This document shows, in pieces, positions 1,882-62,330 of a DNA stretch of 64,000 nt. Each line of letters opens with the position of its first letter. Position 1 is the stretch's first letter. The stretch is from contig JACCGJ010004930.1 of assembly GCA_013407085.1 (NCBI GenBank), positions 113,597 through 177,596 of the forward strand, written 5' to 3'. The stretch is from Atriophallophorus winterbourni (lineage: Eukaryota; Platyhelminthes; Trematoda; Plagiorchiida; Microphallidae). The notes under the pieces are model-generated. The model did not search any database and had not been told where the DNA came from. It saw nothing but the letters and a program-made list of their open reading frames with translations. The translations under genes were made by a program, and so were the position numbers.

Positions 1882-1908
1882 ATGACGTTGGATTTGGACC
1901 ATCAACAA
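1882..1908 (+). CDS. Micro-exon A1 (27 bases, phase 1-1)
   Basis: A 27-base exon between a polypyrimidine acceptor (ttcttccag) and a consensus donor (gtaagtatt). Read in phase 1 (two bases, eight codons, one base) it gives DVGFGPST with no stop. The length is a multiple of three, so skipping it keeps the frame. Diverged copies at the same place in other modules (7844, 14349) give NVAPGLLS and YVASGPS. Small symmetric exons of this kind are the defining trait of platyhelminth micro-exon genes. Upstream exons were not found because a LINE sits just upstream. Expression is unproven. Confidence 0.55.
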
Positions 1909-2713
1909 GTAAGTATTTTAAAGAGCGTCCATTAATCACACAAATTGCACGACAGGTATCTTGTTGTTCCCAATTATTAGGAAAGGACTCAAGGATCAGT
2001 GTCCACATGTGGTTGAAAACAATGAGAAAAAAAAGAAATTGTGCTTGTATGATTGAGAGAACATAGGTCTCATCAAATCTCGAATAAAATATTCGTTATA
2101 ATTAACGGCTACGTTGGCAGTAAATAAAATGTTTTAAGAGTATCTAATCTTCAAATCATGCGAGCTCCATACAAGCATCCCATGTGAATTCCCAACTTAT
2201 CATTGGTCAGATTTATGCATCGTCACCATGAAGCCCAAATATAATCTACTAATTTTATAAAATTATTCGATGTGGCGGTACATCCTCACTCCACAAAATT
2301 ATAATGTAGCGGAACGTCCTCACTCTATCGCTGGACAGTCTACTTGTGTGCAGTTCACGTGGTGTTACCATATTGTGAACGTTCAATTGTGTTAAGGTTA
2401 ACCTGTGTTTTCTTGGTTATCTGTGTTGGCTGTGTTACCTGATTGTTATCTGTGTTTGCTAACTCTGTTATGTGCGTGTGCTAGGAAGATTTTTCGGACT
2501 GCAATAATGCTTGAGTTTATTTATATTTCTTCATAAGTATCGAAAATTAAAGTAAATTTTTAAGGACAAAACAGATTAGTGAAACCTCTTGCTCCAAACC
2601 TAAATTTTAACATGAGGATGACTCAGCGCCTAGGATTACATATATATGCATATTAAGAAACATTAGGAATTAGAGAATCATTATTTTCGTTATGTTTTCC
2701 ACTGTTTTTCCAG

Positions 2714-2740
2714 ATAAACCTCAACCACCACCCCCAAAGT
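2714..2740 (+). CDS. Micro-exon A2 (27 bases, phase 1-1, proline-rich)
   Basis: Flanked by tttttccag and a strong donor gtaagtatat. Phase 1 translation is KPQPPPPK. The paralogous exon at 13459 has the same length, acceptor and donor but encodes KRQPASPM. All four base differences change an amino acid, while the introns on both sides are easily aligned. Proline-rich octapeptides of this sort suit a flexible extracellular linker, but that is inference. Confidence 0.6.
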
Positions 2741-3399
2741 GTAAGTATATTTGACAGCGAGGGATGTCGTTTGTACTAATAACCAGTTTAAGCTCATGAG
2801 GTAACAAATACGTCGAATGCATTTGATCACATGATCATAAACAAAAGGCACATGTGCATGCATTTCCATCAATCACACCAATTGCACTCATTAGGAAAGG
2901 ACTTAAGGTTCAGGGTTAACATGTGCTTGCAAAAGATGAAAAAGAATAAAGATATTGTGCTTGTATGATTAAGAGTACATAGGTCTAATCAAATCTCGAA
3001 TATAATATGCGTTCTAATTAACGACAACGTAAGTTGTAAATAAAACGTTTTAAGAATATCCTTACTTCAAATCATGCGAGCTCCATACATGCATCTCATG
3101 TAAATTCCCAACTAATCATTGGTCAGATTTATGTATCGCCACCATGAAGCCCAAACATAATCTTCTCATCTCATAAAACTATTCGATGTGGCGGTACATC
3201 TTCACTCCATAAAACTATAATGTAGCGGAACGTCCTCACTCCATCGCTGGACAGTCTACTTCTGTGCAGTTCACGGCAAGAATAAATTGTTCATTCTGTA
3301 AACAGTGATTAGCAACATATTGGTTGACGCAATTGTTTCCACGCTTGAGCAGATCAAAGACAAAATGCGTGTATTTATTTTCATTATTCGACTAAATAT

Positions 3400-7843: not shown

Positions 7844-7870
7844 ATAACGTTGCACCTGGACTATTATCAA
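7844..7870 (+). CDS. Micro-exon A3 (27 bases, phase 1-1)
   Basis: Acceptor ctgttttttcag, donor gtatgtgta. Phase 1 translation NVAPGLLS. It is the counterpart of A1 and A5 in the module that LINE copy 2 split, so the exon and both its splice sites survived the insertion. Confidence 0.5.
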
Positions 7871-13458: not shown

Positions 13459-13485
13459 ATAAACGTCAACCAGCATCCCCAATGT
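13459..13485 (+). CDS. Micro-exon A4 (27 bases, phase 1-1)
   Basis: Acceptor ctgtttttccag, donor gtaagtatat. Phase 1 translation KRQPASPM. Paralogue of A2: same length and splice sites, four base changes, all replacing an amino acid. It sits in a complete intron module (13396-14345) directly after a 240-base array. Confidence 0.6.
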
Positions 13486-14348: not shown

Positions 14349-14372
14349 ATTACGTTGCATCAGGACCATCAA
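14349..14372 (+). CDS. Micro-exon A5 (24 bases, phase 1-1)
   Basis: Acceptor ctgtattttcag, donor gtatat (weaker). Phase 1 translation YVASGPS. It is one codon shorter than A1 and A3, with which it shares the V-G-S pattern. It lies 103 bases upstream of B2, giving the tight cluster A5-B2-C2. Confidence 0.55.
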
Positions 14373-14475: not shown

Positions 14476-14514
14476 CCAGACAAACAGTCCGTGAATTGTT
14501 GATGATGAAAAAAG
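14476..14514 (+). CDS. Exon B2 (39 bases, phase 1-1)
   Basis: Acceptor aaatttgatttcag, donor gtgagg. Phase 1 translation RQTVRELLMMKK. It has the same length as B1. Joined to A5 and C2 the frame stays open: YVASGPS, T, RQTVRELLMMKK, D, then DIVIYKP. The intron before C2 is only 44 bases long, as in the B1-C1 pair. Confidence 0.6.
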
Positions 14515-14558: not shown

Positions 14559-14603
14559 ATGACATCGTAATTTACAAACCCAATAAACCGATTAATATTG
14601 AAC
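14559..14603 (+). CDS. Exon C2 (45 bases, phase 1-1)
   Basis: Starts after the strong acceptor cctccgtttctttcag. Phase 1 translation is DIVIYKPNKPINIE. The proposed donor (gttgaa) is weak, but it is the only GT that keeps the frame: the next in-frame codon after it is a stop. The copies at 3962 and 32792 share the DI-I-KPNK motif. Confidence 0.5.
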
Positions 14604-14639
14604 GTTGAAGTTACATTATATATTTGTTAATTCTATTCA

Positions 14640-22811: not shown

Positions 22812-22829
22812 TTACCGGAACCGGATCAA
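22812..22829 (+). CDS. Micro-exon D1 (18 bases, phase 1-1)
   Basis: Acceptor ttcgttttacag, donor gtaagtattg (consensus). Phase 1 translation TGTGS. The first two bases are TT, as in the micro-exons at 26801, 34844, 34964 and 37695, so the split codon is always X-TT. It lies about 1 kb upstream of the terminal-type exon at 23852 and probably belongs to the same duplicated unit. Confidence 0.55.
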
Positions 22830-34425: not shown

Positions 34426-34537
34426 TTGAACAATCTCTCCTTTCTACTATTAGGCAGAATCATATATTGTGAGTGGTTATATTATTCGACAACGAAGGAC
34501 TTTGAATTTTATTAAAGGCAAATTTGAAAATTGCCTA

Positions 34538-34843: not shown

Positions 34844-34864
34844 TTGGTTCTGAAATGACATACG
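34844..34864 (+). CDS. Micro-exon E1 (21 bases, phase 1-1)
   Basis: Acceptor atatatattgcag, donor gtaagg. Phase 1 translation GSEMTY. It is 300 bases after the polyadenylation signal at 34538. Either an upstream first exon is missing from my reading, or this exon is spliced to the exons further upstream. Confidence 0.6.
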
Positions 34865-43600: not shown

Positions 43601-46600
43601 TCAATATATTTGAATTCGGGTTACTCTGTCCCGACCCGATGAATGTAAAGAGCCCGAAATCATTCCTGTTTTTTTGTGTTTGATAGAAATTGAAGCTATT
43701 ATTGATTTTGAAATCATATATAATTCATATTCATTTCCTCAAATTGAAATCAGTCGTTGTTTTCGAATTGCTCATCTTAAGCAATTATATTTTGCAAGCT
43801 AATATTCCATTTTTTTCTAAACAATGTGTCAGCCATGAACGAGAGTTGTTCCGAGGTCAAGGCTGATTCATAAAACTATATATATATATATATATATATT
43901 GCTTTTAATGTGCACAAAGCGTTGATAAAAACCGGAGAAATTTTGTTACGGTAGCCCTGATACACACACATTATTGGTTTCAAGCTGGTTGCTCTGGAAA
44001 CGTTTTGTGATGAAGATTGGTCTGAATGAATGTTCATAAATTAAAAACATTTGTTGATGTTAAAAGTGAGATTTTAAGTTCTCGCAAATAATCATGGTGC
44101 TTATACTTTACACCTTCAATATCAAACTGATGTGTGGGAAATTCAATAAAGCATTAAATAACTCTTAGGGACAAAGTACTATGCCCGAACTAACTAATTT
44201 CGAATGTTTTTGGTCAAATCAATCTGCGCATGCTAAGCCTAACATTCGTGTTTGTTTCTCCACTGCTTCATGATTATTAGGACGTGCTGGAACTGCCTAA
44301 ACTTGCGCATTGTTAGATGATTGAATATTTATTAGGAAGTTTTTTCGTTTTGTTTCCCAGTGATAAAAGCGAAGTGTGTGATTGAACAGCACATGAGTGT
44401 CGGCTCATTGAATTGAACAGGTTGGTCGTATCGACCTTATCTGAAATTGGCTTTCGACAAGAAATAATTTATGTTTTCTGCAATGTGTCAAACGCATGTG
44501 GATTCTGATCCTTCTGTCTGTTTCTGATAAGCGCAAACGTTACGAACCGGGTCATTGATTATGAGTGGTGCAAAGCACTCAAATTAGTATTGTTTGGGAT
44601 TCCGATTAGATTTGATTATTTCACTGAATTTTTGTGTGGATTCTGAATTCGTGTGAACAGAAGCCACTATTGACATGATTTGTTATTTTATTTCAAGCTA
44701 AAAAATTTACAACTTTTGGAGTCTTGAATCTATATATTTCATATTTTCCTCTCGTCCAAAGTTGAAATGATATTGGAAATAGATAATTCTCCAAAGATTG
44801 AAGAAGCTCAACTCTTGGGTACACTGGAAACAGTTCTTTCGGAACTATCATGTGACGTAAGTTTGACGGTATTTAATAATTACTAAGAAGTACTCTGTAT
44901 TAACACAAGATCTATTCATTATATATATATGTGTGTGTGTGTGTCTACACGATATAGATAATGCCGCGCCCCCAACAAATAATCAACTGCAAACTGATTG
45001 GATTCATGAACTTGATGGATGATGACAAATATTTGTTAAGAATCAGATTAACCACGAACCATGTACCATCCGATGAGGAACCCATGAAGCTACGAATGGA
45101 AATTAAGAGCATATATCGTCAAAATAACTACAATGTGATCACAATTACATCCAGTTTGTTGGAATTCAATCAACGTGAGTTGTTTCTTCTTTTGATGTCG
45201 TTCAGGAATATCGAGACTATAGGTTCGATAAGTCATTCGAATTGAACAACATGTATTAATGATTATTTGTCTGGATAATTAAAACCGGTGAGCATGATGG
45301 AACACGATTCATGTGGCATAACATTTATTTGCTCCATTCAAATTTTCATGAGGATGCTGCGAATAACCTTATAAACAACTGAAAATGCCTCACTCGCTTA
45401 CATTCGGTGGCTTTTTGTAAACAAATGAGCATGGACGGAACTGTTCTCCTTAGATAAACACACATTCACTCAATTAACTTCAGTCCCCCTCAGGTATTCT
45501 GTATGACATCACTCAAATTGCTTATTTTAATGGTGTATGGATACACAGATTCTACATTTGTTCTACTTACGTTAGTTTCGCGCAGACACATGGGTCTTTG
45601 TTTTGCCATAATAAATTCTATGCTTCAGTTTCATGATTCAATTCATTTTGAGTCAGAATGTCCAATCATGCGATGTATTATTCCTACCTGGAATTAGGTA
45701 GATTTTCATACTAATATGCAAAGCTACAGGCTAGAATGTTTTGATATTGTGTCATAGAAATTCAAGAATGTTGACGTTCTAAAAAAACAACCGAACTTAA
45801 TAATAACCATATAATGGTAACATTTTCAATGGCCATGTATGAACAATATGAGCAGTTACGTTGAACAGTGTATACGTATTTTGCAAACAAAGTATTCGAT
45901 GTAAAGTCGTCTAATGTAGGTTTAAAGTCTGTCAAGCTAGTGCAGTGAGCAACAATATATGCCAAACCGTTCAAAGTAAAATATTTCAGGCGCGAATCGG
46001 TTCGTACCAGTTTATATTCTTGGTCCGCTAATTGCTTTTACGAATTCGCTTATTCCCTTTCGGGGCATAGAAATGGTTTTCAAATTGAAATAAAGTCTAT
46101 TCTGATTCATCGATTGGGAATGGGGAACACATTCAAAGGAGCTATCCACTTTTTATAAGGATTGATTCGCATGCTCTTTTGCAGTGATGACTATTGTGCA
46201 TACGTTCTACATCATATTTGAATCACGTACACCATGAATGCACAGCTAGGTTCATGACTGGTCTCGATATTTGCAATCATAATCCTTCAAAATATCTTGA
46301 AAGAAATTTTTAAAATATTTCCCAAATACCCGTTCGAGTATATTAGGCACCCGTGTTGACATTAACATGACAGTAATCAAATATTTATCTTTGCATTAAT
46401 TCTCAATGAGATGTGAACCAATAAATCATTTGCGACATTTCTTTGGAATTTACATCAGCCTGCATTTGTAGAAGTAAAATGGGAGTTTGTTCTTCATCAA
46501 TCAATAGTGAACAGTGATATAGTGATGGGAAGCAGTCTTCTGAGTTATTGATGCAACGCCATATCATTTATTCGTACGTAAATAATGAAATTTTACATCA

Positions 46601-49600
46601 AAAAATTTCCGGTACTTCATTGACATCAACCAGAGAGAGAATCGTAGCAAGGATTATACATCGAGGAAGTTGGCTGGTTGCTGCAACTGGTTTTATTAAA
46701 GCACGTGACCAAGTCTGTAAATAGTGGGTTTTTTTGAACAACGTTTTACACAATTCAACAATCTTCATCGAGAATGTGCCTTACAAGCATCAGCAATATT
46801 AATCTTTGGTTTGCAATATCAAATGCTTTGATGCAATTAATGTAACGAAAGATTATTGCTCGCCGTTTATCTATCGATTTTGCCAATCATCTAAAAGCAT
46901 TCACAAATTATATAAATAGGAATAAATCCGTCTAAATCCGTACAGTTTCCTCGAAAGCAATTGCACATGCTTAAGATGTTTTATTAGAGAGTCAACAATG
47001 AGGCGCTCAATTAAATTGAAAATAACAGGTAACAGAATAACTGGTTGGTAATTAGAAAGATACGAGTTATTTTTTTCTCGTTCCCAATCAGGAGTAATCA
47101 AACATATGCGAAAGTGTTTGCTTGTACATTTGCGTGAGTGTTTGGTAAAGAACATTCGCACATTGCTTCAATATTAGATTTGTTAGTCCATCTGGCCCAG
47201 GACATTTGCCGGTTTTATGATTGAAGGATGCATTCAATGTCCATTCATGTCTTGATTGCATGGACCATGTTTCACTGCCGTACAGTGAGGTATATATTTC
47301 ACACGCGGAACCTCATTAACAGATTGCTCAAATGAAATTCTTTCTTTATGTTTACAATGCATGATATGCAACCGAAGAATTATATTTCAGATGGTGAGGA
47401 AGTTGGTGACATAGCCTGCAACAATTTTATTTAGCGAAGTTTATTTTGAAATTTAAATACATTATTTTATGAGTTTAAAATTATCAATTTTTATCGTTCC
47501 GCAGAATATAAAGGAACATGGGATAATCCACAATTGAGTACGTGCAATGCGAAGCGATTTCCTTTAAAAAAATAAATAAAGTAGGATAAACTAATTTTCA
47601 TTGTCACATGAATCATATTGACCTTATATATATTGCTAAATATTCGGTTGTTATGACTTTTAAAATCATCGCTAGCAACATTTCCAGGACGTATCATCGT
47701 ATACCATCATGCAGCGATGTAAAATGCCGTTCATGACTGGTTTCGGTGGCTGTGAATAAATATTTCTTTCATCGATATATGAATTTCTCACAAAGTGACT
47801 AAGTTTTTGATTGGTCGTTGCGATATTCCGCATAATGATATATTTTGACATCTAGAAATTGTAATTACGAAAACAATATTTTTATTAATGTATCGAAAAA
47901 GTGACACGTTGTTGTACTATCTTGCTCCAACAATCTATTTTCAAACATTCATTGTCGGATTCACTTCATACTGGGCTTTTTATATATCTAAGATCGCCTA
48001 ACTCATCCATGCATGATAATATTTGAAGGGAATATACACCTAAGCTTTTGTAAACGAAAATCTTTCGCGAGCCATACATTTGATATACTCTATTAGTTTA
48101 AAAATTTTATTCGCAACATATTTCCGTGTTGTTGGCAAACGCTCAACTAACATCAATATATCTTGACGAAAACGATACATCTATTGAACGCGCATATGAA
48201 ATATCGACTTATAAAGCACCATAGTACATAAATTCCTGTTGGGTTTTGTATCTTCGTTGACGCTAGTAGGCATTATCTTTACAAATAGGGTAAGTAAAAC
48301 GAAAAGGTTGCAAGCGGTAGACGAATAATGTTGGTGGACTGAGTGATATTCATTCCAGTTACTTATTCTGGCCGGAGTAATTGTATATGTTGTAGGAGAA
48401 ATGTTACCAAAATCTGCTCTACCAGATTGCTTCGAATTCCATTTTCATAGCGACTACTAATCAATCCTTTCAAAACATTTTAAAATGAAAAGAACAAAAA
48501 CTAAGTTTTGAGTTGACTTGAATCCGTAATACCCAGATTTCTCATGAAATACAGTGTTATTTTGGAGGATAGCGTGACAAAAGGTCATGAAAGGGAAGGA
48601 TTCACATTGTTTTTTAACATTGTTTTTAACAAACCGTCACCGAAATATAGGTTTAATGTCCAGAGCAACATTATCTGATATTCAAAAATATATATTTAAT
48701 TTTTGCAACTTCCTCAAATACTCGAAAAACCTGCCACTCTTTTTCTCATAGTTTCATAGAAAGTATATGTGCTAATTCATTTTCCAAATTATCCAGCATT
48801 CGCGATGCTATCCCATACATGTACGGAGGGGAAACCTACCAATATTACGATGGACAACAAAATGAAAAGGGGAATTATGAATGATGTAAGTTATTACATT
48901 TTATTCATTCGGTGAAATGATATAACCGCCATCATCAAACAGTGTTAAATATACCGTTTACAGGGTCACGCAAATTCTTGTTTGGACGTTGCATTCAAGT
49001 TACTTAAAGGATATCAGCTTCAATTTAACTAGATATATTCGTGAAAGTTTAAATGATGATTAATAATACAAGATGCTCAATACCGATTAATGAGAGACCA
49101 TTTGAGAAGCTTATAAGGTAGATAATTTAACATGTTTTGATTCAAACATTGATATAGTAAATAATCATTTGTTTGATTGCTTATTAATCTGAATCATTTC
49201 ACAGGTGTACGTTCAACAATATTGTGATACTTGTATTAATAATGTTTCTGCACACACACAAATAATGATCTTCATTAATATGAATATGAATTCATAGCGG
49301 TTAACGGTAAACAAATGCATTGTTTGATACGCAGCCGTTTTACTAGATGGTTGTACCGTTCCTGTGTTGTTGCCCAGCGGTTCGGCTGGATGGCGATGCA
49401 GCTCAGGGGTTAGATATTGGGGACAAAATATGAAGAGATCAGAAACCAGCGCGTCGTATAATTTGATAAACAAAAGAAGTAACAATAAGTATTTAGGCAA
49501 ACATTACCATTTACGTTCAAAATAGGCAAGAATTTGAGTTTTGTATACGTTTGTTCGTGGTGTGCGAGATATAATCTAACGATGATATTTACACAAACGA

Positions 49601-51972
49601 CACATTTTATATGAAATTAATTCCGGTTACAATATGCGGATTTCAATAGCATTCTCGAATTTATATTCAATCGAATGCACTGAGTGCTAACCTCTTGCGG
49701 GAGATTAAAGTCGCCAATGATCAGCAATTGCGTAGTCCGGCATCTTATGGTGTGTTGCAAGGATTCGATTTGCTTATCATTGAATGAGCTTTCGGATGAT
49801 GTCGAGCGGTAAATGATGCTGATCGTATATTCATCTTCATTGACTAGTTTTACTAAACACCACATCGTATAAGGAAAGCTAAGTTTAGAATGAACGATTA
49901 GCTTACACTGCGCTAAACGTATGTTAAAACCAATCGCTATACTGTCCAAGTTATATACCGTTATATAAATGTTGTCAAATTTACATACACACGGATCTGT
50001 GTTTTGAACGTGTAACGAAATGTGTAAACACGGTAGGACTTGAACAAGGACCGTCCAAATATTAGAGCTAATTTCTGCTTAACGTGTTCCGAACTCGTGA
50101 ACCTCGGTCTGTAGTTTATATATTAAACTCTTAAGATTAGATCAGCAACTTACATCATCTAATTAAATGAGTTGAATGTAATGTGGTTCCCAAGAAATCT
50201 TGAACGTTTTATGTTATCATCACTTTATTTCACTGCATGATGCTAACCAAATTTAAAACTTATTTTCATGAAAATGAAAGTTGGGTGCATTCGAATAGGT
50301 TAGATCAGAATAACGTTTCATTTTGGCAAAACAAGTTATGTCTGACCAAGTGTGGTAGTCGGTAAGGGAAACTTAATGAATTAGCGCTCTGTACGTTACA
50401 GTAATTTGGTTGTTAATCTGTTCGTCGATGTAGACATTGGATGTACATCACATTTGTATAAAGTTTCATGTTCTACATTTTTTGAATGAATAGGCCGTAA
50501 GATTTCGGGGTGCAATTTATCCCGCTGTGCTTGCAACGATGGTTAGTACTAGTTTGTGGGGCGCCAGTTCCATGCCGACGGCGTGATCTGTATTCGGTTG
50601 CCAACACCTATGTCTGCTACACATTAGCTTGCAAACGACGCTTAACACAATGCATCCAATTTGAGCGATTAACCAAACTAACAGGTAAATTAAAAACAGC
50701 TTTTATGTCTTTTTCGCAAACGTTTTTGCACCGCAAGTACGTTCCGTTCAATGGTTGACTTCATAATTACAACTCACAAAACATTTGATCTATCGAAAAT
50801 ATATCATTGCCCATTCTTTATATATGACCTAGCCACTGCACGCGGCGTGCCGTAATAAGGTAAACATGCTCCGTACACCTGTATTTGAAAACATTTCAGC
50901 ATTAACCAAGATATGTTTAAGATATGATGGGTTCTTCGTAGACGGAAAGCATATAACTCAAGTTCGTGTCTTGCGCGAGTGGTCCAGGTTTCACTGTCTT
51001 ACTGTATAGCATTTAGTATTCACGCGCTATATACCATCATCTTTGTGTTTACAGTCAACTTGCGGTTACCCAAAACACGAGAGTTTAATCGGGACAAAAT
51101 GACCGCTGCTCTGTGAATTCTCTCATAAATCTCCGTGCCCAGCGAGAGGTTATCCGCAATGGTTGAAACAATATAAATAAAATGATGTAATGGTTTAAGC
51201 GTACATCACAACGTAAAACTATTATCTAAATCAAATTCTAGGTGTCTCGAGTCACAGAGACGCATGCGATATAATTTTGCCTATTCGCACATACTAGCTT
51301 GATTTGAGTCACGCATAAAATCTTCAAACGTGTCTAAGTTTAAGTGGCATGAGTGATGTAAATAAATATAAACGCTTTCAGTTAAAATACCTTTTGGACC
51401 GTTGGAGTAAAACGAGCAATACTGTAATGATCTGTGCATCGTCTAACTCGATCATCAAATTATGTTCAAAGTTCAATTTCATGGCAATAACTAATCGCTC
51501 CTATACACTTTCCATGACACTTCAAAAACGTCGTTCGTTGAAAGTTTATTTATGTTTTGAAGGTGGTGAAAGACATTAAGTTATACAAAAGGTGGAGTTT
51601 TGTTTTGAACCAAGAACAAAAAATCGTGTCTGGTGCAATTGCGTCCGAATGGTTCGTGAATGCATGGAATGTGACAAAAAGCAAAGCCTTTCTTTTTTCC
51701 GGCTATCCGGAACGATGGCATCAAACCGCAATTTGGTTACGCAAAAACGATTTTCCCGTCGGTTCGGAATGTGTGCGAAATTTCGAGTATAAGATGGAAA
51801 AAGACTACGGTGGGTACATTTTTTCCATTTCCAAAGTTGTGTGACTATAAATCTAAGAACAATAAGGCTCTCATACTCGAACATAATATTTCAATATATT
51901 TTGCTTTTTCTACGAGTAACCCGTTACTTCTGAACATTATTGTCTATATGAAGCTCACTGTAAGACGGAATC

Positions 51973-52017
<45 letters not shown>

Positions 52018-55000
52018 TATAATTATTGTGAAATATCGAGTTATAATGAGATGCATGAATCAAGTGTACTATTAGGTATAGCGAATATTGTGTTTGTAAA
52101 AATCTGGAATGACGTCTGAAATTCTGCGACTACGTACAAAGTGGGAACGGTTAAATAGGATAGCTACTCTGAGGAAAGAACTTCACACATGGCAATTTAT
52201 CTAATTTCAACATTAGTATTGAGCATTAGCACCGCAAATGCAATAACCTATTGTAACTAATATTTCAATGTATTGTGTTTTGTTTTCTCGTAAGTCCTAG
52301 CATACATCATATTCACAATATTTTAAAACAACACTGATTTTTGTACATTTATCCCTTAGAGATCGTTAAATAATTCAAACTTCTCTTTAATCTAGAAAAT
52401 GCTCAGTTTTACGGTAAGTTTCCCGGATATCAAATCTTATGTTCGCTATATTATTGTTGCGAGGTTTTGCCAAATGGTTTTAAAATCAATCAAACCTAAC
52501 ACATGAAACTGAGACAAACGTTTTTGCGGTTATCACTTAACGTGCTACACTACATACATGAAACAAATCGAAAGCAAAGTTTCCAACCGATAAATTCCGA
52601 GTGATTATTTTTGAACTGAATGCATAATAAATGAATACTAACCCAAAAATTCATAGGAACACATGTTACTATTTATCAAACCAGATTATTGTTCCATATA
52701 TTTATTTCGACAATTTCTGGTGAAATCTTCAAACTTTTGAGTGTTGAGCACTACTCACAATCGGATATTAGGAAACCTTAGTAAACCTTCTCACAACCGA
52801 CTTCCTTTTTAAGACTGGGGTCTCAACACTGAGACCTGATGTCAAAGCCTTATTCCTCAACGGTCGAGAAGGAAACGTGATCAAATAAATAATTGATACG
52901 ATCCAGCTTTCTATCAATGTCCGTGGGTTAGTTTGCTTCAAGACACAAATTTATTCATCTAATCCACGAGTAACGCTATCGCGAGCTTTTAAAGCAAGCA
53001 AGTGAAATGTGTTGAATAATGTCGATGAACCTACTAATTATACACCCTAACCCGGGTTAACCTCATCTTCTGGCTTACAGCTGTTTAAAATTAAAAAAAG
53101 ATTTTCGCCAGAAACGTCGTGTAACCACCTTTTGAAAAAGAGTGTAAATTTTAGAGGCTTTATGGTCGCGTGTACATCATCGATATGATTATCTTGGAGA
53201 ATAAGCCAGTGCGCTTCGCGACATAATTGTTTATCGTAACTTAAATATATTTTTGATAGAAAAACAAGTGAATCACATTCGATGCGATAAAACGGACAGA
53301 AAAAAACGCTTCGTTAATTTTATTTTTATAGTCTTTAAACAAATGTGAGTATGGTTATGGAGATAAAAAGCGCATCGGTCATACGGCAAATTTCAGGGCG
53401 TTACCAATTGATTCATATATATAACCCGCAGCCACAATTTTCGAGTCAAACCAACGCTGATTGCGAAGTGCCGCGCTTATGACACCTTCAAACCAAACCG
53501 ACATTCTCAATCTTCTTTGCAGTTTTTATTGTCGCTATCCCTGGTTAGTGAGCGTGAAATGCGGATAGAACGTTAATATTTATTGCGACGAAAGCAACCG
53601 GGATTTTATAAGATTTTTGTTAAACATTCTTATCAAAATGGCTAAAACGGTTCTCCTATTTTTGGATAGATAAGATGTTACGCGAACAGTGAAGTGAGGT
53701 CATGATACCGCAGAATAACATCGGTACAGGAGCACGCTTCTCGCCAACAGCAAGCCCGATTCTAGTCAGGAAATGTGTGTGCACTTTGTTAGGCGTCTAT
53801 TGCTGGAGCACCAGCACTTGAATTGGCGGTAAAAGCATAATGCACTTCCCTGTATTTTCGAGCACCCTTCGATTCAGTTGTTATTTTTGCCATATGTAAA
53901 GTGATCAATTCGCGATGAAATTCCGCGGAACTACATTGCTACGCTGTTGTCATTCATTATAAAACGTTGGTTTGCAGCATAATAATTACCAGAATTTGCA
54001 ATAAATGATCTTGTTTGTATCTCTTATTTTATATATCGGGAACGTTTGGCTGTTGTTGGTTATGCGATTAATAACGAAATCACGACTTGACTTGCTAAGG
54101 CCATGGTGGCATTTTCGTGATTTAAGCAACTCTGTAAGAGAAGGTATTTTGGCTTGATATTAAACAGAAAATTCTTTGTAACTGTGGCGTAGACTTAATT
54201 GCTTTACGAAATTGGAGGTTGAACAGTTCGCGTAAAAGTAGTTAGGAGGCCGGTGGTCTGTGATCAACGTTGTTTGCGAAGAATTACTAAGCATCATCGA
54301 AAAACCAAGTTTGCATAAATGAAGTCATGCGCCGCGTTTTCCTAAACAACGACATTTCCTTTCAAACAGTCTTTACCTGACTTCGTGTCAGCTAGTTGGA
54401 ACACAGTCTGCTCATGAAACCTGAACGGTTACCACGCCGAGCGTTCTATAGTTCAGCCGATAAAATTGCTGCTGGTGGTCAGCCGCTAATTCGGAGCAGT
54501 GACATGTAACGGTTTACTTGCTGTCTAATTAAGGTTTTACGGGCGTGCTTGCCTAGGTTGGATACAACATAATGAACAATTGTTCAGCTGGACACTTTTT
54601 GAAGGAGAGCTTTGTAACAGTATCAATCGATATGATTGCTTGAATTCTTCGTCACCGGACTTTGATTTTTACGCTGAATATTAACAAAGATGAAGAACAA
54701 ACAAATAAATTTACCATTAACGTGAATATGCGAAATTTTGCATTGTTATTTACTGTTCTCCTTTCGTGAATTTTTCATTTCAATTATGCGAAGCGATAGC
54801 ATAGAATTAAAAAGGATTTTCTGGAGGTGTTATCAAGGTGGACGGGTTGTCTTAAGAGGCAATCAGATGATCTCCATGTTGAGCTGTTTCCGCGTATTTA
54901 ATTCTAAACATTATTTGTCATCGTCATTTCCGTGAATGCAAGAGGTTGATGAAAACCATAACTGTTCATAGTTTAGATTCACTGAACAACAACATATTTG

Positions 55001-58000
55001 TCTGCAAAACCTCTTCCTCCACCGGAAGCTAAAATTGTTTTGCTTATTCGGGAATTATTAATTTAAGATACACTTTAGTTCGTTACCTGAAATGATATAT
55101 AATTAAACAACCGATGTTGATCACTGATATAAAGATTTCATCGTCAACTTTCTTAGTTCATTCTCAAATTTCATTAGCATACAAGCATGGTTAACCTGAC
55201 AGTATTTTGGTCAGGATCATGCTTGTGTGAATCTATACACGTCACGTTTTCTCAAATTTGTAGTAGTATAATTTCTGAAAATTCGTTGACAGTAATAAAT
55301 GTATATTCTCCTTCTTCATCATCATCATATTCTTCTCATATGCTTATCATTTTGATTCATCAACATTTTATTGGGGACCGATAAAACATATTGTACATGT
55401 TCTTGTTAACCAATACTTTTATACGAAATCTGTCACGAAGTCATAGATAAAAATTGTATTGCATCCAATGGGATCACTATGGAGATTTTAAAATTCAAGT
55501 TATGAATGCCTAAAATATTAGTGTAAGATTGCTGATTAATGTTTGTCGAAAACAAAACAAATTATGTAGGTTAAGTAATTTGTAGACGGATACTATATCA
55601 TTTAAAAGTTGGCTTCTAATAAACTGTTAGTTCCATCTATTTCGTGAACTTAGATTAAACATTTCAGTGTGAAATCGCAAAGGATGTTGTCTGTTGATAT
55701 TGAAATTTGGTGATACTCATTGGAAATTAGTAAACATTTCTGAACTGGGTTGTTATGAAAAACGTTTCACCATTTTCTTCATTGAAAGAAATTATACATA
55801 ATTCCTTATTGTATTCTGAATATTTTTCTCTCTCAGTGATTCACTTGCAGTTAACAACTAACTACCCGAAAGATGTTGTTTGTATTGATGTAAGTGTACA
55901 TAAGTTGAGATTTTTTGTCTAAATCTGATTATGTGACGAGAGTAACCACTGTCAACTGTTAAACTGTCAAACTAAACATCGCTAAACTCGTCGATTTTGA
56001 AAAGTCAGAGGATTAAGAAATTCCAGGTTGACCAATTTTATTGATAAGTTATTGTGATTAGAATATTTATGTCACACACATGCTCACAACATTAGCACCA
56101 TTTAATTTCTGTAACCTTAGTAAGGATCGTAAGATTCTAAACACTCATATAATGTCAGTTCATAGTATACATATGTAGACGATGCAGAGTTTACGCTAAA
56201 TTTATAAACGTAAATTGAAGTGTGTACCGATATGTTCTGTAAGAATCGATCACCTGGTTTAAATCGATTTGTGCCTTAAATTCGTGCACCTGAGATGTGA
56301 TTTTACATCGATGGACTATTCTAAGCCCTCGAAATCTTTCCGAAAATGTTGAATATTGAAATGAACTATCCTGCAGTCGAATATAATCTTATCATAAATA
56401 ATCAAACTGTTTTAACTTGAACACAAAATTAGCGCACTGAATGGCCGAATTTACAGACTAGTGCTGAAAAAATGTGGAAAGAAATATAGGTTTGTTTTGA
56501 CTTTGGTCAATGTTGAAAGATATGAATGAAACAGAAAAATATTAAGCAAACCTTATCGCATCAACAGAAAGAAACAGCCAAATTAAATGCTCTTGAATTT
56601 TTTTTCTAATTTATTTGCCTAAACATTTATTTCATAGCTTTTCTACGGTGTCCTGGATTTACGTTACTTTTACGTAGCAAAAACAGACTTAGTTAATTTA
56701 GAACCAATTAATCAATTAGAAGATATAAATGCTCGGTAATCCACTCAGATGAATGGCTCGACTTCTCGCCAGCAAATAGCTAGTCCAATATTGCCAACGA
56801 CAAACACTAAAAAAGCTATATTAATAAACAAGTTTGAACACATCCGGAAAGAAGTGAACGATCTTGGATAGATTCTATAATTCATCTCAAAATGATGTGA
56901 CGAGTTCAAATGCACACATTGCATTTATATTTAGAATTCAGTGGCTGAATCAATATACGCTCAATCGAAGAAAATAGTGTTGTCCCTTTTTAAACGATCT
57001 GCACGGGGTAAATGTTTAAGTCTGATTGTATTAAATAAACTTGTTTTTAGCTGGTCATATCCTTTGTGTATATCACATATTAAACCGGCAATGAACATAA
57101 ACAAGCAAGATTTATTTAAACAAATTGATTCACGATCGGCCTAGTGTATAAAAATGAGAAGAACAACCTGATTGTTCGATATCGGCAATTAATCTGTTAA
57201 CTCTTTTTTATAATGTATATCATCGACATTTTTGAAACATTGAACGTAATTTATCCATCATTAAATAAAGATTTTTCAGGAAAACTATGAAAGTATCTGC
57301 TGGGTATACAGCTAAAAAAAGCTTAAATTGGAATTAACTGAAATGTAATCTAATTTTGCGTTATTTACGGTTTTCATCCTTCAACTAAAATAAACATTTA
57401 AAAAAACGAATTTGGGAAGGCGTAACACGCGTGAATAACTTTTATCGTGTGCAAACAAAAATGAGTCTTTATCATTGGTTGCGATCACACGTTAACTTGG
57501 ATCGATGAGGGTACATGTTTTGTTTAGACGAACCGGTCTTGCTTTCGTTGTTTCGATTAAGTGCCCTGACTTAATGAATTCTAGGGTGTTTGAAGAAAAA
57601 GCATGCAAATAAGCACTTTTTCAAAATCACGTATGTAGGCCGAATCTACACACGTGTGATGTTATTTGGTTGAAAACTTTGGTAATAACAACGATACCAA
57701 ACATTCGAGCTCAACTAGTTAACCAATTTTCTATTGTTTCCAGCTCTTGCGGATCCTAAAACTACTGCCCCTAACTAATCAATACAAAAAGCTTAAAACC
57801 GTCGTGGTGTGTATGTGATGAAAGTGAATGCAAGTAAGCTTTTTGTTATTAGGCATGGGTGTAAATCCAGGCGACATAAGCGTGGGCTCATGCGATGGAG
57901 CAAATGGACCGTTCCCCACTAATACACCTGTGGTATACACGCAAAACGTCTTAATTATAGATAATTTGTTCATTGGGTTTAATCAAACTAATTGACCAAA

Positions 58001-61000
58001 CCATTATGGTGTCATTCTTCATTCAGCTATGGAAGCTATAAAAAATCAACAGAGCAACATACTCTATGATATTTATGTCCTGTAAACTCAAATTATAGTC
58101 CGATTGAAAATGATAAACTTTGCAAATTTTCAATATTTTGTTTTATCTCATATATTTTTAAACAAAACGCGTGGATCTTTTGAATGATTCTCAGCAGGTT
58201 TAAAAAAACTCTATTCTATCAAATGGCATTTTTACGCGCTTTGTTAAATCAATCACTCAATACGGGAACCGGAACGTTAACGTTTTATTCATACTCACAG
58301 ACGATTAAAAAGCTGAAACCAGGACCAATATTTACGGAACTATCCCAGGATCATTGTTTGATTCTCAAATGGTTAAAATGGGGAGAGAGTTCGATTCATT
58401 TCGTGATGCTACAATTAGTTATCCCATGGAATGTGGAAATTCAACGATACAAAGAAAAAAATGAAATCCTTCGATTCCAAAACGTATTGTTTGGATTGGT
58501 CAACACCACCCTTTCTGTCTGGTTCGCTCCTGATCATCCACATTATTGTGAGTTTCCTTTGGAGCGATGCTATTTGTAATAATAGGGCCCGAAAAGCGCT
58601 GCAGATGTTAGCAACATTACACATTTGTCGTATTTACGAGCTTTTAGAACTTGCCCATAAAGCACTTAGTGATTCTGTTTTTGAACACCGTGGTTCATTG
58701 TTGGGAATCCTATGTATCACTAACCTGACTCTCCGAATTTGCTAACTACCTTTTCACTGTTTTGAGATAGACCTAAATAAATATTACCGTTTCCATGTGA
58801 TGGCTGCAAACACTCGTCTAAAAATAGAAAAGCAAAATATGCGCAAACCTATGCGTTGAATATGGATTTTTTGACGTTTGTTCAGTACACAATGAAATGA
58901 GTTTCAAAATAACAAGTGAAAAATATGGCAGCTTTTGTAACCTTTCTGATTATGTTTGAACATTTTGGTCATCTTGTTTCTACTAGACAGTATAAGATAA
59001 AATGATTTTTTGCATCTGTGCGTAAGTCTGAATAACGGTTATCATCGCGTGACCACTCTGAAATCAGAGGAATACACCAACGCATTAGGAAACATTTTAA
59101 TTTGTCAACATTGAATTAGCTACAGATCGCATACACCATCACTGAACTATTCCAGTATAATTTCAATAATTGAGAATTGAGTTTTGACAACTACCGAGTG
59201 CACTATCTGGACGTGTGGTTAGCATTCTCGCGTGCGCACATCCAAAGACTTCGTCGCCAGCGTATTCCAATGTGAAATTTACGGACAACTCTAAAACAAC
59301 GTCTCAAAATTAATTCGTAATTCCTGTTCAAACGCCTGTAAAAATCGTACGTTTTCTCAAAACTAATACTCCATTTAACCAGTTTGTTATTATCATCGTA
59401 AGCGTAATTCACCAAGCAGAAAAAAGACCGTGTTCTTCAACACAAACGCTATCCGACCTTGAAATTTAGAAGTCGAAACACATGTTGTGAGGAAATGCAT
59501 GGAAATAAAATCTGAATTCTTGTCTCTTCAAAATGTGGGATCAAGATATTGCTTTTTTTAGTTTGAAGATGTAATGTAATTTATCAACGTGAATTCTGAT
59601 GGGATTGTGCTTTCGTTTAGCGGAGCGGAATAACACGCACCATCTTGATATCCGTATCCGAGATCGTCATTCATAAAATGAAATGATTATTCACGTGAAA
59701 CGTGATGGATTGTCTAATCATCACGTGGTTGGGATCGATATCCACGCTCAAAATCTATCTATAGAGGCCAATTAATTAACCTTTCTTCAGGTTTTATTTG
59801 TCACATGAATTTGACGTATGATAAATACTCAGGTTCGAAATTAGAGAAACGTACATAGTTTGAACAACCGTTGACTCAAATTGATGATAGGTGACATGAA
59901 TATTCATTGATACTCATGTTTGGGAGTTGAGTATTTGATACGTATTCCTTACTGGTGTTATCCAATTTTGCTAACCAGCAGCGTGTTTGACTAATCAGTG
60001 TGTATATCGAATTAACCGTGGTGTGTGATGGAACTGCATGCAAATAAGGATTGTTTGCAACTGCCGATTGTTTAAAGTTGAATGAACAATACAAGTATTT
60101 AATTGCTTCGAATACATAAATCATTTAACTGATTTGTATACAGAAGCCCTAATAAGTATTCGCGTGATCTCCCGAAGTTTTTTTTACATTTTCCTACAGA
60201 TTATGTTCACCAAGACAATCAAAAACACATGGTCTGTAAGTCTGAATTGTGCGCAAAATTTCTATTACAATGAACATCGCGTAAGAAAAAACCTAATAAA
60301 ACCGCTGCCATGGATCTTTTGATTAGTTATTTCATAAACTAAAGGCACAATTGCATGTATGTCCATCACATACGCACACTCTAAAAGCGGTTTTTTGTTG
60401 ATTACAAGCATCATGTAGGGGCAGTAGGAACAGGATCACCATGCGCTTGACATAATAAAAGAATGGTTAACAAGTTGCGCCTTCAGGCCAAACTTGTTTA
60501 CCAAACCGTTTGAATTCAATCAAACCGAAACCCGAATTGATCTGAGTTCCGGGTTGTCGTCGTTGAACGTTTCTGTGCTTGATCTTGTAATGCAGTTTGT
60601 ACATTGAATCCTATGGTATCCTGATTCAGGTTGGCCATCGTTCTTATCTTGTTAATTGATCTGATTACTTTCTTACAATGGTAAATAGAGCCTCCTCAAG
60701 AGGACGTGTTATGTATCTGAATTATGGTATTGGTTACCATGATAACAAAACATTATTCATTATACAGGCTCCACAACCTCCATTAATGAGGCAATCTAAA
60801 AAGATGTTTTGTTCAATTAAACAAATGATCGGCGCTGATTTTCCCTGATCAGGATCTGTATTAACTCCAGAAGTTATAAGACTAGACATGCGTTCGTTAG
60901 AATTAAGCACCCCTGAAAGAGTCACGATTGATTGATTGAATGATTATATCATAATATAATAAAATTTAGTGAAAATGCATACTGCGAATGCAAACAATAT

Positions 61001-62330
61001 CCTAAACGAACGTATCATGAAGTGTTACTAGTTTATATTAATGACTTGCCTCAAGGCGTATTTCAAAATGAGGTTGATGTTATTTTCTGAAATGCAATAT
61101 ACTACAACGATAGTAGGGCCCAGAAAGCGCGGCAGATGTGAACAACATAACGCATTGGTCGTATTTACGATATTTTATCACTTGTTTATGGAGTACATTG
61201 TGATTCTGTTTTTGAACACAGTGGTTCATTGGTAGGAACCCTATATATCAGTAACGTGACTCTTCCAATTTGCTTACAACCTTTTCACGGTTCCACGATA
61301 TACTTGAATGAATATTACCGTTTCCCCTTAATGGCTGCAAACACTCGTCAATAAATAGGAAAGCGAATTATGCTCAAAGCTATGCGTTATATATGGCTCA
61401 TTTTCACGTCTTTTCAATAAACAATGTAATGAGTTTTACATCTTACAAGTGAAAAATATGGTAGTTTTGTAACCTTTATGATTTTTTTATAAAAAAACTT
61501 GGCCATCTTGGTTCCAGTAGACCGTGTAAGATATAACGTTTTTTGCATCTATGCGTGAGTATTAAAAACGGTTCACATCGTGTGACCACTCACACATGTG
61601 CATCGTTCATGACAGGAGTACATCGACGCAATTGGAGTCTTTTTAATTTGACTTCATTGAATTAGCTACTGATTGAATACACCATCACTGAACAATCTCA
61701 ATAAGATTTCGATGAAACTGTCGTACTTACCTGTATAAGGTGCATAATTCAGTGTTCAAACGCGAAATGTATTTGGATGTTGTCTTCAAATGTTGCGGGG
61801 AAATCGAACCTATAACCCCTGAAATTTAATGTTTATTATCGAACGCGACATAGTCCGTGATATCAAACTTTATGATCTCTCACTTTCTATTCATTGTACA
61901 TTTTTTTTAAATCTAAACAAGAAAACTTGTAATTGAATTCTGTGTTTCACCATTCATCAATTAACAGATTTGCAAGTTTTTTACCAATCGCAATTAAGTA
62001 ATGATGACTATACGCTAAACAAAGTTCGTGAAGAGGTTTGTGAATGTTTACATTGGGAAACGGGTCTTTTTACAGCTCAATATTAACAATGAAAATCGTT
62101 GAATTTTTCAGATGGGCGAATTGCTGTCTATGTCAAAAGAGCACCTTAAATGTTTCAGTACTGGCCGTGAAGAGGATACAAATATAATACACTTGAAACT
62201 TCGCATCGATATAACAAATTACTCGGATATAAAACATCCGTTTTGGAATGCACCTATTGTGCTGTTGATGAAATCAAATAAGCAACAAATCGTGAACATA
62301 CAATTGATTTCGAAGCAAAAGTTCTCCTAA
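34844..62330 (+). CDS. Micro-exon-type modular gene, 15-exon model (454 aa, 5' end not found)
   Basis: Fifteen plus-strand exons join in one open frame of 1367 bases: 34844-34864, 34964-34990, 37695-37709, 44762-44856, 44958-45174, 45494-45532, 48797-48885, 51382-51562, 52396-52413, 55837-55889, 58301-58547, 59791-59832, 60200-60235, 61968-62035, 62112-62330. Small phase 1-1 exons (15-42 bases) alternate with four two-exon modules, each an X exon (phase 1-0) plus an M exon (phase 0-1). Three complete modules are 312, 270 and 300 bases, all multiples of three. Every junction gives a sense codon. M exons share a strand pattern (LLRIRLTT, VMICASSN, VMLQLVIP, LKLRIDIT). Sequons NIT, NLT and NTT suggest a secreted or surface protein. 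Start codon, signal peptide and promoter were not found; the family is unknown. The exons at 45494, 58301 and 59791 are the weakest. Confidence 0.5.
34964..34990 (+). CDS. Micro-exon E2 (27 bases, phase 1-1)
   Basis: Acceptor catttatctgacag, donor gtgagttg. Phase 1 translation MKTKDWFE. The 99-base intron separating it from E1 is short, and both splice pairs fit consensus. Confidence 0.65.
34991..37694. other. Intron, nothing recognised
   Basis: AT-rich sequence with no LINE, array unit or exon-like segment that passed the phase test. Confidence 0.45.
37695..37709 (+). CDS. Micro-exon E3 (15 bases, phase 1-1)
   Basis: Acceptor tatgcttcag, donor gtgagtattt. Phase 1 translation NVNR. At 15 bases it is the smallest exon in the model; a segment this short between AG and GT is the easiest to meet by chance, but it keeps phase and the TT start. 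Confidence 0.45.
38705..39000. repeat. Local tandem duplication and TTC microsatellite
   Basis: The text ctagccca-ggtaacctgacacttt occurs near 38730 and again near 38935, about 205 bases apart, with similar sequence after each. A (TTC)n run follows at about 39062-39089. The rest of 37710-40560 shows nothing I can name. Confidence 0.7.
40561..40606. repeat. (AT)n microsatellite
   Basis: Pure dinucleotide run of over 20 repeats. The IYIYIY-rich open frame that covers it is an artefact of the repeat. Confidence 0.95.
40785..42660 (-). mobile_element. CR1-like LINE copy 4, heavily degraded
   Basis: Minus-strand remnant with its 3' end at the left (ttcaagattcagtattcatg at 40786). Pieces are visible in several frames: MMNTYIHPVLDYTTQAWTP (about 41330-41384), a DVTSGVPQGSLL-type block near 41800-41840, FCRNRCCLTKLL-type text near 42010-42040, and an RT N-terminal part near 42250-42500. 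Frameshifts and stops are frequent. It lies in the intron before X1. Confidence 0.75.
42661..44761. other. Intron; only low-complexity and an old repeat fragment
   Basis: Contains an (AT)n run at about 43878-43901 and a diverged 240-base-unit fragment at about 44490-44560 (gattctgatccttctgtctg). No exon candidate passed the phase test. Confidence 0.45.
44762..44856 (+). CDS. Exon X1 (95 bases, phase 1-0)
   Basis: Acceptor cctctcgtccaaag, donor gtaagt. Phase 1 entry gives EMILEIDNSP, then an amphipathic, probably helical stretch (KIEEAQLLGTLETVLSEL) to CD. The ATG at 44767 lies in this frame, so it could alternatively be a start codon. With M1 it forms a 312-base symmetric module. Confidence 0.6.
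44958..45174 (+). CDS. Exon M1 (217 bases, phase 0-1)
   Basis: Acceptor after a TG/AT-rich tract (cacgatatag), donor gtgagt. Codes for 72 residues with strands KYLLRIRLTT, MKLRMEIKSIY and YNVITITSSLL. It aligns without gaps over 27 residues (H to YNVI) with the terminal exons at 23852 and 27866, which is the best evidence that those are coding too. The weak resemblance to RWD- or SEA-type folds is not enough to name a domain. Confidence 0.65.
45494..45532 (+). CDS. Candidate micro-exon after M1 (39 bases, phase 1-1)
   Basis: Strong acceptor cagtccccctcag, weak donor gtgtat. Phase 1 translation ILYDITQIAYFN. Its phase fits between M1 and X2, but omitting it also keeps the frame. Confidence 0.35.
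45755..47220 (-). mobile_element. CR1-like LINE copy 5, degraded
   Basis: The 3' end at the left encodes a LINE tail (TSLTDFKPTLDDF near 45850-45930). The RT N-terminal part is at 46900-47220 (LPVIFNLIERLIVDSLIKHL, GKCPGPDGLTNLILKQCA). The stretch between is too decayed to read. It lies in the intron between M1 and X2. Confidence 0.7.
47221..47330 (-). mobile_element. Fragment of a second LINE family
   Basis: The minus strand reads LYGSETWSMQSRHEWTLNA, a signature of the C-terminal RT region of the LINE family also seen at 50500-51240. It is fused directly to CR1 copy 5, so one element inserted into or recombined with the other. Confidence 0.55.
48797..48885 (+). CDS. Exon X2 (89 bases, phase 1-0)
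   Basis: Acceptor ttccaaattatccag, donor gtaagt. Phase 1 entry gives FAMLSHTCTEGKPTNITMD and on to MND, with one N-glycosylation sequon (NIT). A different frame over the same bases is also nearly open (YGGETYQYYDGQQ), but it hits a stop at the donor, so the phase-1 frame is preferred. Confidence 0.55.
49210..49500. other. Slightly GC-richer patch, origin unclear
   Basis: The minus strand has a 95-codon open frame with TPELHRHPAEPLGNNTG. The base composition differs from the surrounding intron. It may be a transposon relic, but I recognise no motif. Confidence 0.25.
49617..49949 (-). mobile_element. CR1-type endonuclease fragment
   Basis: The minus-strand frame of 110 codons has YTISIIYRSTSS and TTQLLIIGDFNLPQEV, matching the endonuclease part of LINE copy 3 (IIGIIYRLPSS, LLVMGDFNLP). 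The remaining domain is absent. It is separated from CR1 copy 5 by exon X2, so it is a different insertion or a rearranged piece. Confidence 0.75.
50500..51240 (-). mobile_element. LINE reverse-transcriptase C-terminal fragment
   Basis: On the minus strand one frame reads STIADNLSLGTEIYERIHRA, then SRLNSRVLGNRKLTVNTKM, DSETWTTRARHELELYAFRL and, beyond a gap, RCKNVCEKDIKAVFNLPV and MHCVKRRLQANV. This is the C-terminal half of a LINE polymerase, broken by stops (two near 51000). The 34125-34262 fragment belongs to the same family. Confidence 0.65.
51382..51562 (+). CDS. Exon M2 (181 bases, phase 0-1)
   Basis: Acceptor aaacgctttcag, donor gtggtg. Codes for 60 residues with the M-exon strand pattern (TVMICASSNSIIKL, FNFMAITNRS, YTLSMTLQKR, LKVYLCFE). 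With X2 it makes a 270-base symmetric module. The length and phase were predicted from M1 before it was found, which supports it. Confidence 0.55.
51563..51890. other. Stretch open in several frames on both strands
   Basis: Directly after M2, three overlapping frames are open: 95 and 66 codons on the plus strand and 102 codons on the minus strand. None matches a family I know. Basic residues and cysteines are frequent in the minus frame. Possibly a mobile-element relic. An (AT)n run follows at about 51977-52014. Confidence 0.3.
52396..52413 (+). CDS. Micro-exon (18 bases, phase 1-1)
   Basis: Acceptor cttctctttaatctag, donor gtaagttt. Phase 1 translation NAQFY. Its phase fits between M2 and X3. 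Confidence 0.5.
52414..55836. other. Intron, nothing firm
   Basis: 3.4 kb of AT-rich sequence. An AG-GT segment near 53400-53460 (phase 1-0, HIYNPQPQFSS) has a poor donor and was not accepted. No LINE or array unit was seen. Confidence 0.4.
55837..55889 (+). CDS. Exon X3 (53 bases, phase 1-0)
   Basis: Acceptor atttttctctctcag, donor gtaagtgt. Phase 1 translation IHLQLTTNYPKDVVCID. It is the shortest X exon of the 3' gene and has the same length as the longer form of the X-type exon at 26927. An internal acceptor (ttgcag at 55850) would also work in a different phase. Confidence 0.55.
55890..58300. other. Intron with an old repeat fragment
   Basis: A diverged 240-base-unit piece lies at about 57735-57845 (gcggatcctaaaactactgcc). 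No other feature was recognised. Confidence 0.4.
58301..58547 (+). CDS. Exon M3 (247 bases, phase 0-1)
   Basis: Acceptor ttttattcatactcacag, donor gtgagttt. Codes for 82 residues, longer than other M exons, with strands HFVMLQLVIPW, LRFQNVLFGLV and TTLSVWFAP and one sequon (NTT). It forms a 300-base symmetric module with X3. The open frame extends upstream of the acceptor, so the start is not certain; an open frame of this size is also near the chance limit. Confidence 0.4.
58555..59165. repeat. Intron segment duplicated at 61105-61715
   Basis: The first part is a diverged 240-base unit (gtgattctgtttttgaacac, atggctgcaaacactcgtc). The remainder (aagtgaaaaatatgg, tgtaacctttmtgatt, atacaccatcactgaac) is shared only between these two places. 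Confidence 0.8.
59791..59832 (+). CDS. Candidate micro-exon (42 bases, phase 1-1)
   Basis: Good acceptor aacctttcttcag, moderate donor gttcga. Phase 1 translation FICHMNLTYDKYS, with a sequon NLT. It is optional in the model. Confidence 0.35.
60200..60235 (+). CDS. Micro-exon (36 bases, phase 1-1)
   Basis: Acceptor acattttcctacag, donor gtaagtctg. Phase 1 translation YVHQDNQKHMV. Both splice sites fit consensus and the T left over completes TAT with the first bases of X4. Confidence 0.6.
61105..61715. repeat. Intron segment duplicated at 58555
   Basis: Second copy of the pair, about 2.55 kb downstream of the first. It ends about 250 bases before exon X4. Confidence 0.8.
61968..62035 (+). 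CDS. Exon X4 (68 bases, phase 1-0)
   Basis: Acceptor attcatcaattaacag, donor gtttgt (weak). Phase 1 translation LQVFYQSQLSNDDYTLNK then VREE. Helical, charged end as in X1. Only 76 bases of intron separate it from M4. Confidence 0.55.
62112..62330 (+). CDS. Exon M4, terminal (72 codons plus stop)
   Basis: Acceptor cgttgaatttttcag, phase 0. Starts MGELLSMSKEHLK and has M-exon strands (IIHLKLRIDIT, APIVLLMKS, QQIVNIQLIS) before a TAA at 62328-62330. No AATAAA is visible in the next 300 bases; the variant ATTAAA occurs at 62531-62536. It is the fourth module of the gene and matches M1 in strand order. Confidence 0.6.
   Translation: MGELLSMSKEHLKCFSTGREEDTNIIHLKLRIDITNYSDIKHPFWNAPIVLLMKSNKQQIVNIQLISKQKFS

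Follow-up and report, generated by a model that had tools for sequence, protein, structure and literature searches.

A Locus of Micro-exons and Large Modular Exons in Atriophallophorus winterbourni: Probable Member of a Fast-Evolving Gene Family

Introduction

Does a 64,000-nucleotide stretch of the genome of the trematode Atriophallophorus winterbourni (hereafter the window) hold a micro-exon gene, and do its very small exons belong together with the larger ones that lie downstream of them? An initial annotation of this DNA had proposed at least a dozen AG-GT bounded segments on the plus strand, several of them in paralogous sets, together with a junction to larger modular exons. In the best explanation reached here, which is probable, the window carries the final 62 kb of a gene that belongs to a large and rapidly evolving family.

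Sequence Data and Conventions

Coordinates follow the numbering of the window, and negative numbers denote upstream positions on the same contig, C3491 (177,596 bp), of which the window is the last part (113,597-177,596). The remaining 113,596 bp of the contig were also analysed, and copies were searched for in a genome of 537 Mb on 15,840 contigs. Because the assembly may contain both haplotypes, the copy counts given below may be inflated.

Micro-exons of the Window

The counting of AG-GT segments, on which the initial proposal was partly built, had to be rejected as evidence. Among splice-like pairs enclosing 6-60 nt in the window, multiples of three make up 25 of 65 on the plus strand and 39 of 62 on the minus strand, where they are thus more frequent, and segments open in phase 1 number 20 and 19, respectively. 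Since the minus strand gives as many, the count itself is no better than chance and proves nothing. The micro-exons are considered real because related copies are present elsewhere in the same genome, and eleven of those on the plus strand of the window, 18-36 nt long and all phase 1-1, were confirmed. A twelfth, of 39 nt, is likely.

Five of the eleven are copies of one unit. Four are 27-nt exons with eight whole codons each, identified by the splice scan and by membership of the unit family, at 1882..1908 (DVGFGPST), 2714..2740 (KPQPPPPK), 7844..7870 (NVAPGLLS) and 13459..13485 (KRQPASPM); the fifth, at 14349..14372 (YVASGPS), is a 24-nt copy lacking one codon. The distance between the units at 1882 and 2714 is 832 bp, and that between 13459 and 14349 is 890 bp. 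A profile of the exon with its flanks detects ten copies on the contig, spread across ~52 kb, so that the proposed paralogous exon sets are real: besides the five in the window, copies lie at -37577, -36677, -28547, -22847 and -14785, the one at -36677 having a displaced acceptor and an exon of 36 nt. Genome-wide, the unit at 2714 has 40 scored matches, itself included, on 14 contigs, these being the ones scored among 217 first-look candidates. The segment C14662:131468-131808 is 100% identical to window positions 2620-2960, which points to either another haplotype or a copy of very recent origin.

The alignment of 45 units, 35 read outside contig C3491 and 10 on it, reveals that exon length and frame are conserved throughout the family. 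The 27-nt stretch is free of gaps in 44 of the 45, whereas in the flanks a stretch of 27 columns contains gaps in as many as 14 of 34 units. A donor GT directly follows the stretch in 44/45 units and an acceptor AG directly precedes it in 40/45; in four of the five units that have lost this AG, a new one 9 nt upstream creates a 36-nt exon with the frame unchanged.

The remaining plus-strand, phase 1-1 micro-exons upstream of the modules include an 18-nt exon found by the splice scan at 22812..22829 (TGTGS), whose sole copy read, at -8685, measures 27 nt and differs by a 9-nt indel. Genomic copies identify the pair x1 (21 nt, 34844..34864, GSEMTY) and x2 (27 nt, 34964..34990, MKTKDWFE), which has 22 matches including that of the window itself; 16 others were read, for a total of 17. 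The length of 21 nt and the donor GT of x1 are each preserved in 16 of these 17, while x2 is intact in all ten close copies, and its donor is absent in all seven distant ones. Further candidate segments open in frame occur at 34454, 37695, 37848, 39972 and 40657.

The probable 39-nt exon at 14476..14514 (plus strand, phase 1-1, RQTVRELLMMKK) is indicated by the splice scan and by the comparison of its copies, which differ at 15 and 16 of 39 positions vs 3 and 2 of 40 just upstream. A phase-1 exon of this length is found in three of four copies, and the next exon runs into a stop. In the copy at 3.9 kb GAG replaces CAG, and in that at 32.7 kb the donor is lost.

The micro-exon part that follows the first exon of the gene model spans ~60 kb, with introns filled by repeats. 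A tandem array with a repeat of ~241 bp occupies 25442-26659, and its relatives at 12.45-13.4, 17.1-18.8 and 21.4-21.8 kb also lie within introns. Two open frames are present on the minus strand, at 8776-11382 (868 aa) and 5755-7608 (617 aa). The former matches reverse transcriptases, the best organism-named match being Paragonimus westermani (51%); among the 120 matches listed, most are without a named source, and apart from one bacterial MAG those with a name come from flatworms (Paragonimus, Dicrocoelium, Schistosoma, Spirometra and Sparganum). By reading, the 617-aa frame looks like a LINE of the same kind. A Twister-P1-like ribozyme match at 33745-33799 on the minus strand reaches 33.3 bits, under the gathering score of 67.2. 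The minus-strand excess of multiple-of-three segments may perhaps be due to repeat copies. Upstream of the gene, a direct duplication of 12.9 kb, 98% identical, extends over -103994 to -78117.

Variability of the 27-nt Exons

The statistics on the units refer to 34 non-redundant copies, the 24-nt copy and ten near-identical units (≥97%) being left out. When these are read in phase 1, no unit contains a stop codon, compared with two units in phase 0 and 32 in phase 2. The exon is markedly more diverse than the intron (0.337 vs 0.142), with an exon/intron ratio of 1.96-2.82, and the introns of different units are ~83-86% similar. The amino-acid changing differences predominate, pN being 0.409 vs a pS of 0.235, and pN exceeds pS in every one of 1000 bootstraps over units; in the other two reading frames of the same bases, pN is lower than pS. 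Units of one class show a slight excess (n = 10; pN 0.182, pS 0.162) and those of another a strong one (n = 16; 0.290 and 0.050); for a third class (n = 8) the values are 0.222 and 0.145. For nine units of contig C3491, the diversity is 0.371 in the exon vs 0.169 in the intron, with one window at the alignment edge reaching 0.33, a nearly exon-level variability. Collectively, these values indicate that the predicted 27-nt exons are hypervariable and change faster than the introns that surround them.

Each 27-nt exon would add a Pro/Ser/Thr-rich 9-mer, composed of eight whole codons and a junction codon. Among the 272 whole-codon residues of the 34 units, 65 are Pro and 53 are Ser or Thr, and S or T is present in 32 of the 34 9-mers. 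Residue 1 of each 9-mer depends on the preceding exon, with which the junction codon is shared. As 28/34 unit exons have a final T and 32/34 start with AT, a Tyr is expected between consecutive repeats.

Modular Exons

The initial annotation had also placed a junction to larger modular exons downstream of the micro-exons, and this is well borne out: eleven plus-strand exons between 44,762 and 62,330 chain in one frame, with the phases 1-0, 0-1 and 1-1 three times over, followed by 1-0 and 0-stop. They form four modules of two exons each, A (phase 1-0) and B (phase 0-1 in the first three modules). Module 1 consists of 44762..44856 and 44958..45174, with 17 copies of the latter read, and module 2 of 48797..48885 and 51563..51809, a 247-nt exon with 28 scored matches on 21 contigs. 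In module 3, exon A (55837..55889) is called from splice sites and phase only, and exon B (58301..58547, 247 nt) has family copies, as does the terminal exon B of module 4 (62112..62330, ending in TAA), which follows exon A at 61968..62035.

The modules are separated by single phase 1-1 micro-exons placed by the phase chain. These are m7 (33 nt, 47505..47537, YKGTWDNPQL), m8 (18 nt, 52396..52413, NAQFY) and m9 (36 nt, 60200..60235, YVHQDNQKHMV). In match listings whose letters were left unread, the 201 bases surrounding m7 and those surrounding m9 each have 22 genomic matches, their own included. In three distant matches of the m9 region, all on C1672, the aligned part is limited to 60185-60241, i.e., the exon with its splice sites. 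m8 was found in one of six other copies examined and is absent from five.

The 439-aa product of the downstream exons has at least 97 genomic matches, and the same exon order recurs on several contigs. The letters of the B exons were read for 70 of 97 matches, including the four of the window and near-identical pairs, and an internal stop occurs in none of the 70; this count of intact copies is biased upward, because the 27 unread matches include six flagged for stops, among them two of the 28 for module 2 and three for module 3 on C1672. The acceptor falls at the same codon in 65/70 B-exon copies, one copy (L048) having a shifted 5' end, and the donor at the same codon in 56/56 non-terminal copies. 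Exon B of module 2 encodes 82 aa in all 21 copies read.

The rate of amino-acid change differs among the modules. For the 30 best loci, considering pairs with at least eight differences, which are not independent of each other, the median dN/dS is 1.99 in module 3 (20 pairs, 1.51-2.60), 0.93 in module 2 (52 pairs, 0.41-3.51) and 0.67 in module 4 (17 pairs, 0.40-3.10), and the single pair of module 1 gives 0.71. Diversity in exon B of module 3 is 0.108 vs 0.030 and 0.047 in the introns upstream and downstream, respectively (six loci); the corresponding values are 0.105 vs 0.088 and 0.048 for module 4 (four loci), 0.143 vs 0.154 and 0.116 for module 2 (seven loci), and 0.025 vs 0.029 and 0.033 for module 1 (three loci). 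Modules 1 and 2 are therefore not clearly above their own introns, and the excess of amino-acid change is not general.

As regards the identity of the modules, neither the 439-aa product nor a ten-row family profile has a match at E ≤ 10 among the scored proteins of a 5.8-billion-sequence set that does include flatworm proteins; this search scores candidates that share short words with the query and have 0.55-1.75 times its length, and MEGs (micro-exon gene products) are shorter. The modular product has no match in the PDB either. The Pfam scans returned sub-threshold or weak hits, among them FERM_F1 (19.4 bits vs a cut-off of 26.1, seen in three of ten family members) and Integrin_A_Ig_2 (13.6 bits vs a cut-off of 24), both rejected as identities. 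A SEA domain, an idea that arose from sequence reading and for which the Pfam scans gave no hit, was likewise discarded. In the searches made, the predicted modules match no family above its cut-off, and the putative four-module part is without a recognised relative.

Continuity of the Gene

A candidate first exon, 46 nt long and signal-peptide-like (MRFDLCFVLLIIYHV), lies on the plus strand at -43738 with the donor GTGAGT. Its region has 39 genomic matches including itself, 12 of which extend to the final base of the donor and no further; in the six copies read, the donor is present in all, the frame is open in five, and one contains a stop. At least one copy of this exon lies 5' and on the same strand on all 12 contigs that it shares with units, x1 or modules; the distance is 163 kb on C15186, and additional copies on the opposite strand are seen on C3156 and C14662. 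Furthermore, all seven contigs with scored matches to both units and modules (C3491, C12510, C14201, C7918, C5393, C15818 and C1101) have the two on one strand, with the units 26-69 kb to the 5' side. This arrangement supports, but does not prove, one predicted gene of ~106 kb.

The resulting model, in which exon boundaries, phases, order and strand were read from the sequence, starts ~44 kb 5' of the window and ends with the TAA at 62,330 on the plus strand. The order is first exon, micro-exons of mostly 27 nt, a few further micro-exons, four two-exon modules and stop. Six of the micro-exons, as well as the first exon, are contributed by the upstream part of the contig. In total, 17 micro-exons with lengths of 18-36 nt, each read as phase 1-1, belong to the model and account for 456 of its 1737 coding nt, and the product predicted with all exons used has ~578 aa.

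The small stop-bearing exons of the window can also be read as the ends of short mucin-like genes near 4.0, 14.6, 24.0 or 28.1 kb, followed by a separate modular gene downstream, a tandem arrangement that we regard as unlikely. It would account for the stop-bearing exons that follow the 39-nt exon in two copies, including a possible short alternative terminal exon at 14559..14608 on the plus strand (DIVIYKPNKPINIER-stop), a weak candidate from sequence reading. It would also account for three terminal-like ORF copies, among which those at 23855-24043 and 27872-28057 weakly resemble the B exons of modules 1 and 4 (E 0.45-1.2) and an upstream one carries a one-base shift, as well as for seven more contigs with unit matches and no scored module match. 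The segments near 4.0, 14.5, 24.0, 28.1 and 32.7 kb, part of the sets originally proposed, are weaker than the 27-nt units. The tandem reading is opposed by the state of the four copies of the short terminal exon, since that at 32.7 kb is without an acceptor and that at 3.9 kb without an end. Separate genes are further opposed by the same-strand position of the units 5' of the modules and by the first-exon matches on contig C3491, which are confined to -43.7 and -78 kb with none listed nearer the modules; a scan for signal-peptide-like exons listed no further copy of the first exon from -43.7 kb down to the modules. Shorter transcripts may also exist, given the stop-bearing exon at 14559 and two ORF copies whose ends lie at 24.04 and 28.06 kb.

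Interpretation

A single ~106-kb gene of a large diversifying family, with a signal-peptide-like exon, micro-exons for 9-mers and four modules, is thus the reading that we consider probable. We infer that splicing would join its predicted micro-exons and modules to encode a single protein, secreted or exposed at the surface. The 9-mers would form a mucin-like stalk with probable O-glycosylation, and any phase 1-1 exon could be kept or skipped with no frame shift. Since all repeat exons share one phase, exon choice would be free and many variants per gene could result. Repeat exons that evolve more quickly than their introns would be expected of a protein obliged to vary its surface continually. 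Recombination between copies would keep the introns alike, while selection by recognition molecules of a host may cause the 9-mers to diverge. The same has been proposed for SmPoMuc (Schistosoma mansoni polymorphic mucins) and snail FREPs; according to PMC3757033, SmPoMuc is highly polymorphic and interacts with these FREPs.

A more far-reaching version, put forward tentatively, is a coat-protein system that is both combinatorial and diversifying. It would comprise dozens of ~100-kb genes, each placing hypervariable 9-aa cassettes before a four-module ectodomain without known relatives, and germ-line recombination together with exon choice may generate variants specific to the individual. The cassettes would be interchangeable because of their identical phase and homogenised introns.

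That the family is a true SmPoMuc ortholog, i.e., the same family in diverged form, appears improbable. PMC2576457 describes for SmPoMuc a 27-bp exon encoding a 9-aa repeat that bears S, T and P, ~1-kb genomic repeats and introns more alike than the exons in a multigene family, and the units studied here agree with this in exon and repeat length, in the distances within two unit pairs (832 and 890 bp), in family organisation and in introns more similar than exons. The same paper, however, reports GA microsatellites between the units, a hammerhead ribozyme in an intron and exons of ~60 bp. In the window, no hammerhead ribozyme was detected at E ≤ 1, and no GA tract is present among its 14 tandem-repeat entries, from which imperfect tracts below threshold may escape; large modular exons take the place of the ~60-bp ones. 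The modules also have no protein match, in a searched set that may lack SmPoMuc.

Finally, it is highly improbable that the locus is a relic, an ancient cluster of defunct gene copies riddled with transposons in which the apparent exons are remnants, for although LINE ORFs lie inside introns, acceptors or donors are lost in some copies (5/45 units; 7/17 for x2), some module matches are stop-flagged and dN/dS is near 1 in some exons, the 70 B exons read are free of stops, the phase chain is unbroken, and the 27-nt stretch remains gap-free between gapped flanks.

Comparison with Known Systems

Micro-exon genes are an obvious point of reference. As described in PMC5825161, PMC4350168 and PMC10526429, MEGs have long introns, a signal peptide at the start and recent duplication, and the mature portions of MEG-1, -9 and -15 have dN/dS values above 1. 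This family is similar in its long introns, signal-peptide-like start, duplication and local excess of amino-acid change, and its 17 symmetric, multiple-of-three exons of 18-36 nt fall within the MEG size range. Short symmetric exons of 6-36 bp constitute ~80% of the MEG coding region (PMC5825161). The share of micro-exons, however, is only 26% of the coding length here, and for this reason membership of the MEGs fails; the initial description as a micro-exon gene holds for the micro-exons and duplicated blocks, and not for this proportion. The model product of ~578 aa also contrasts with S. mansoni MEG products of ≤189 aa (PMC10526429). A composite layout is known from S. mansoni VAL-6, which, according to PMC4350168, joins a micro-exon stretch to a larger ordinary part as the present model does. 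VAL-6 is, however, a venom-allergen-like protein, whereas the modules described here stay below every Pfam cut-off.

By analogy of design, SmPoMuc is the closest apparent analogue of this family. The likeness to SmPoMuc as described in PMC2576457 comprises a 27-nt exon for a 9-aa repeat within units of exon plus intron, a signal peptide (here signal-peptide-like) placed first, a multigene family, and introns that are more alike than exons. The two differ in that the SmPoMuc introns are >93% identical, compared with the ~83-86% noted above, and in that SmPoMuc comprises ~ten genes with repeat units across up to 20 kb, vs 28 scored module-2 matches and units over ~52 kb here. Moreover, four large two-exon modules are found instead of short exons of ~60 bp. 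The tiny size of the exons suggests how such families evade gene finders. If transcribed, the locus would provide another example of the SmPoMuc design, the second and the larger one, in which exons outpace introns, and the generality of 9-aa micro-exon cassettes as a means of varying host-facing flatworm proteins would become testable.
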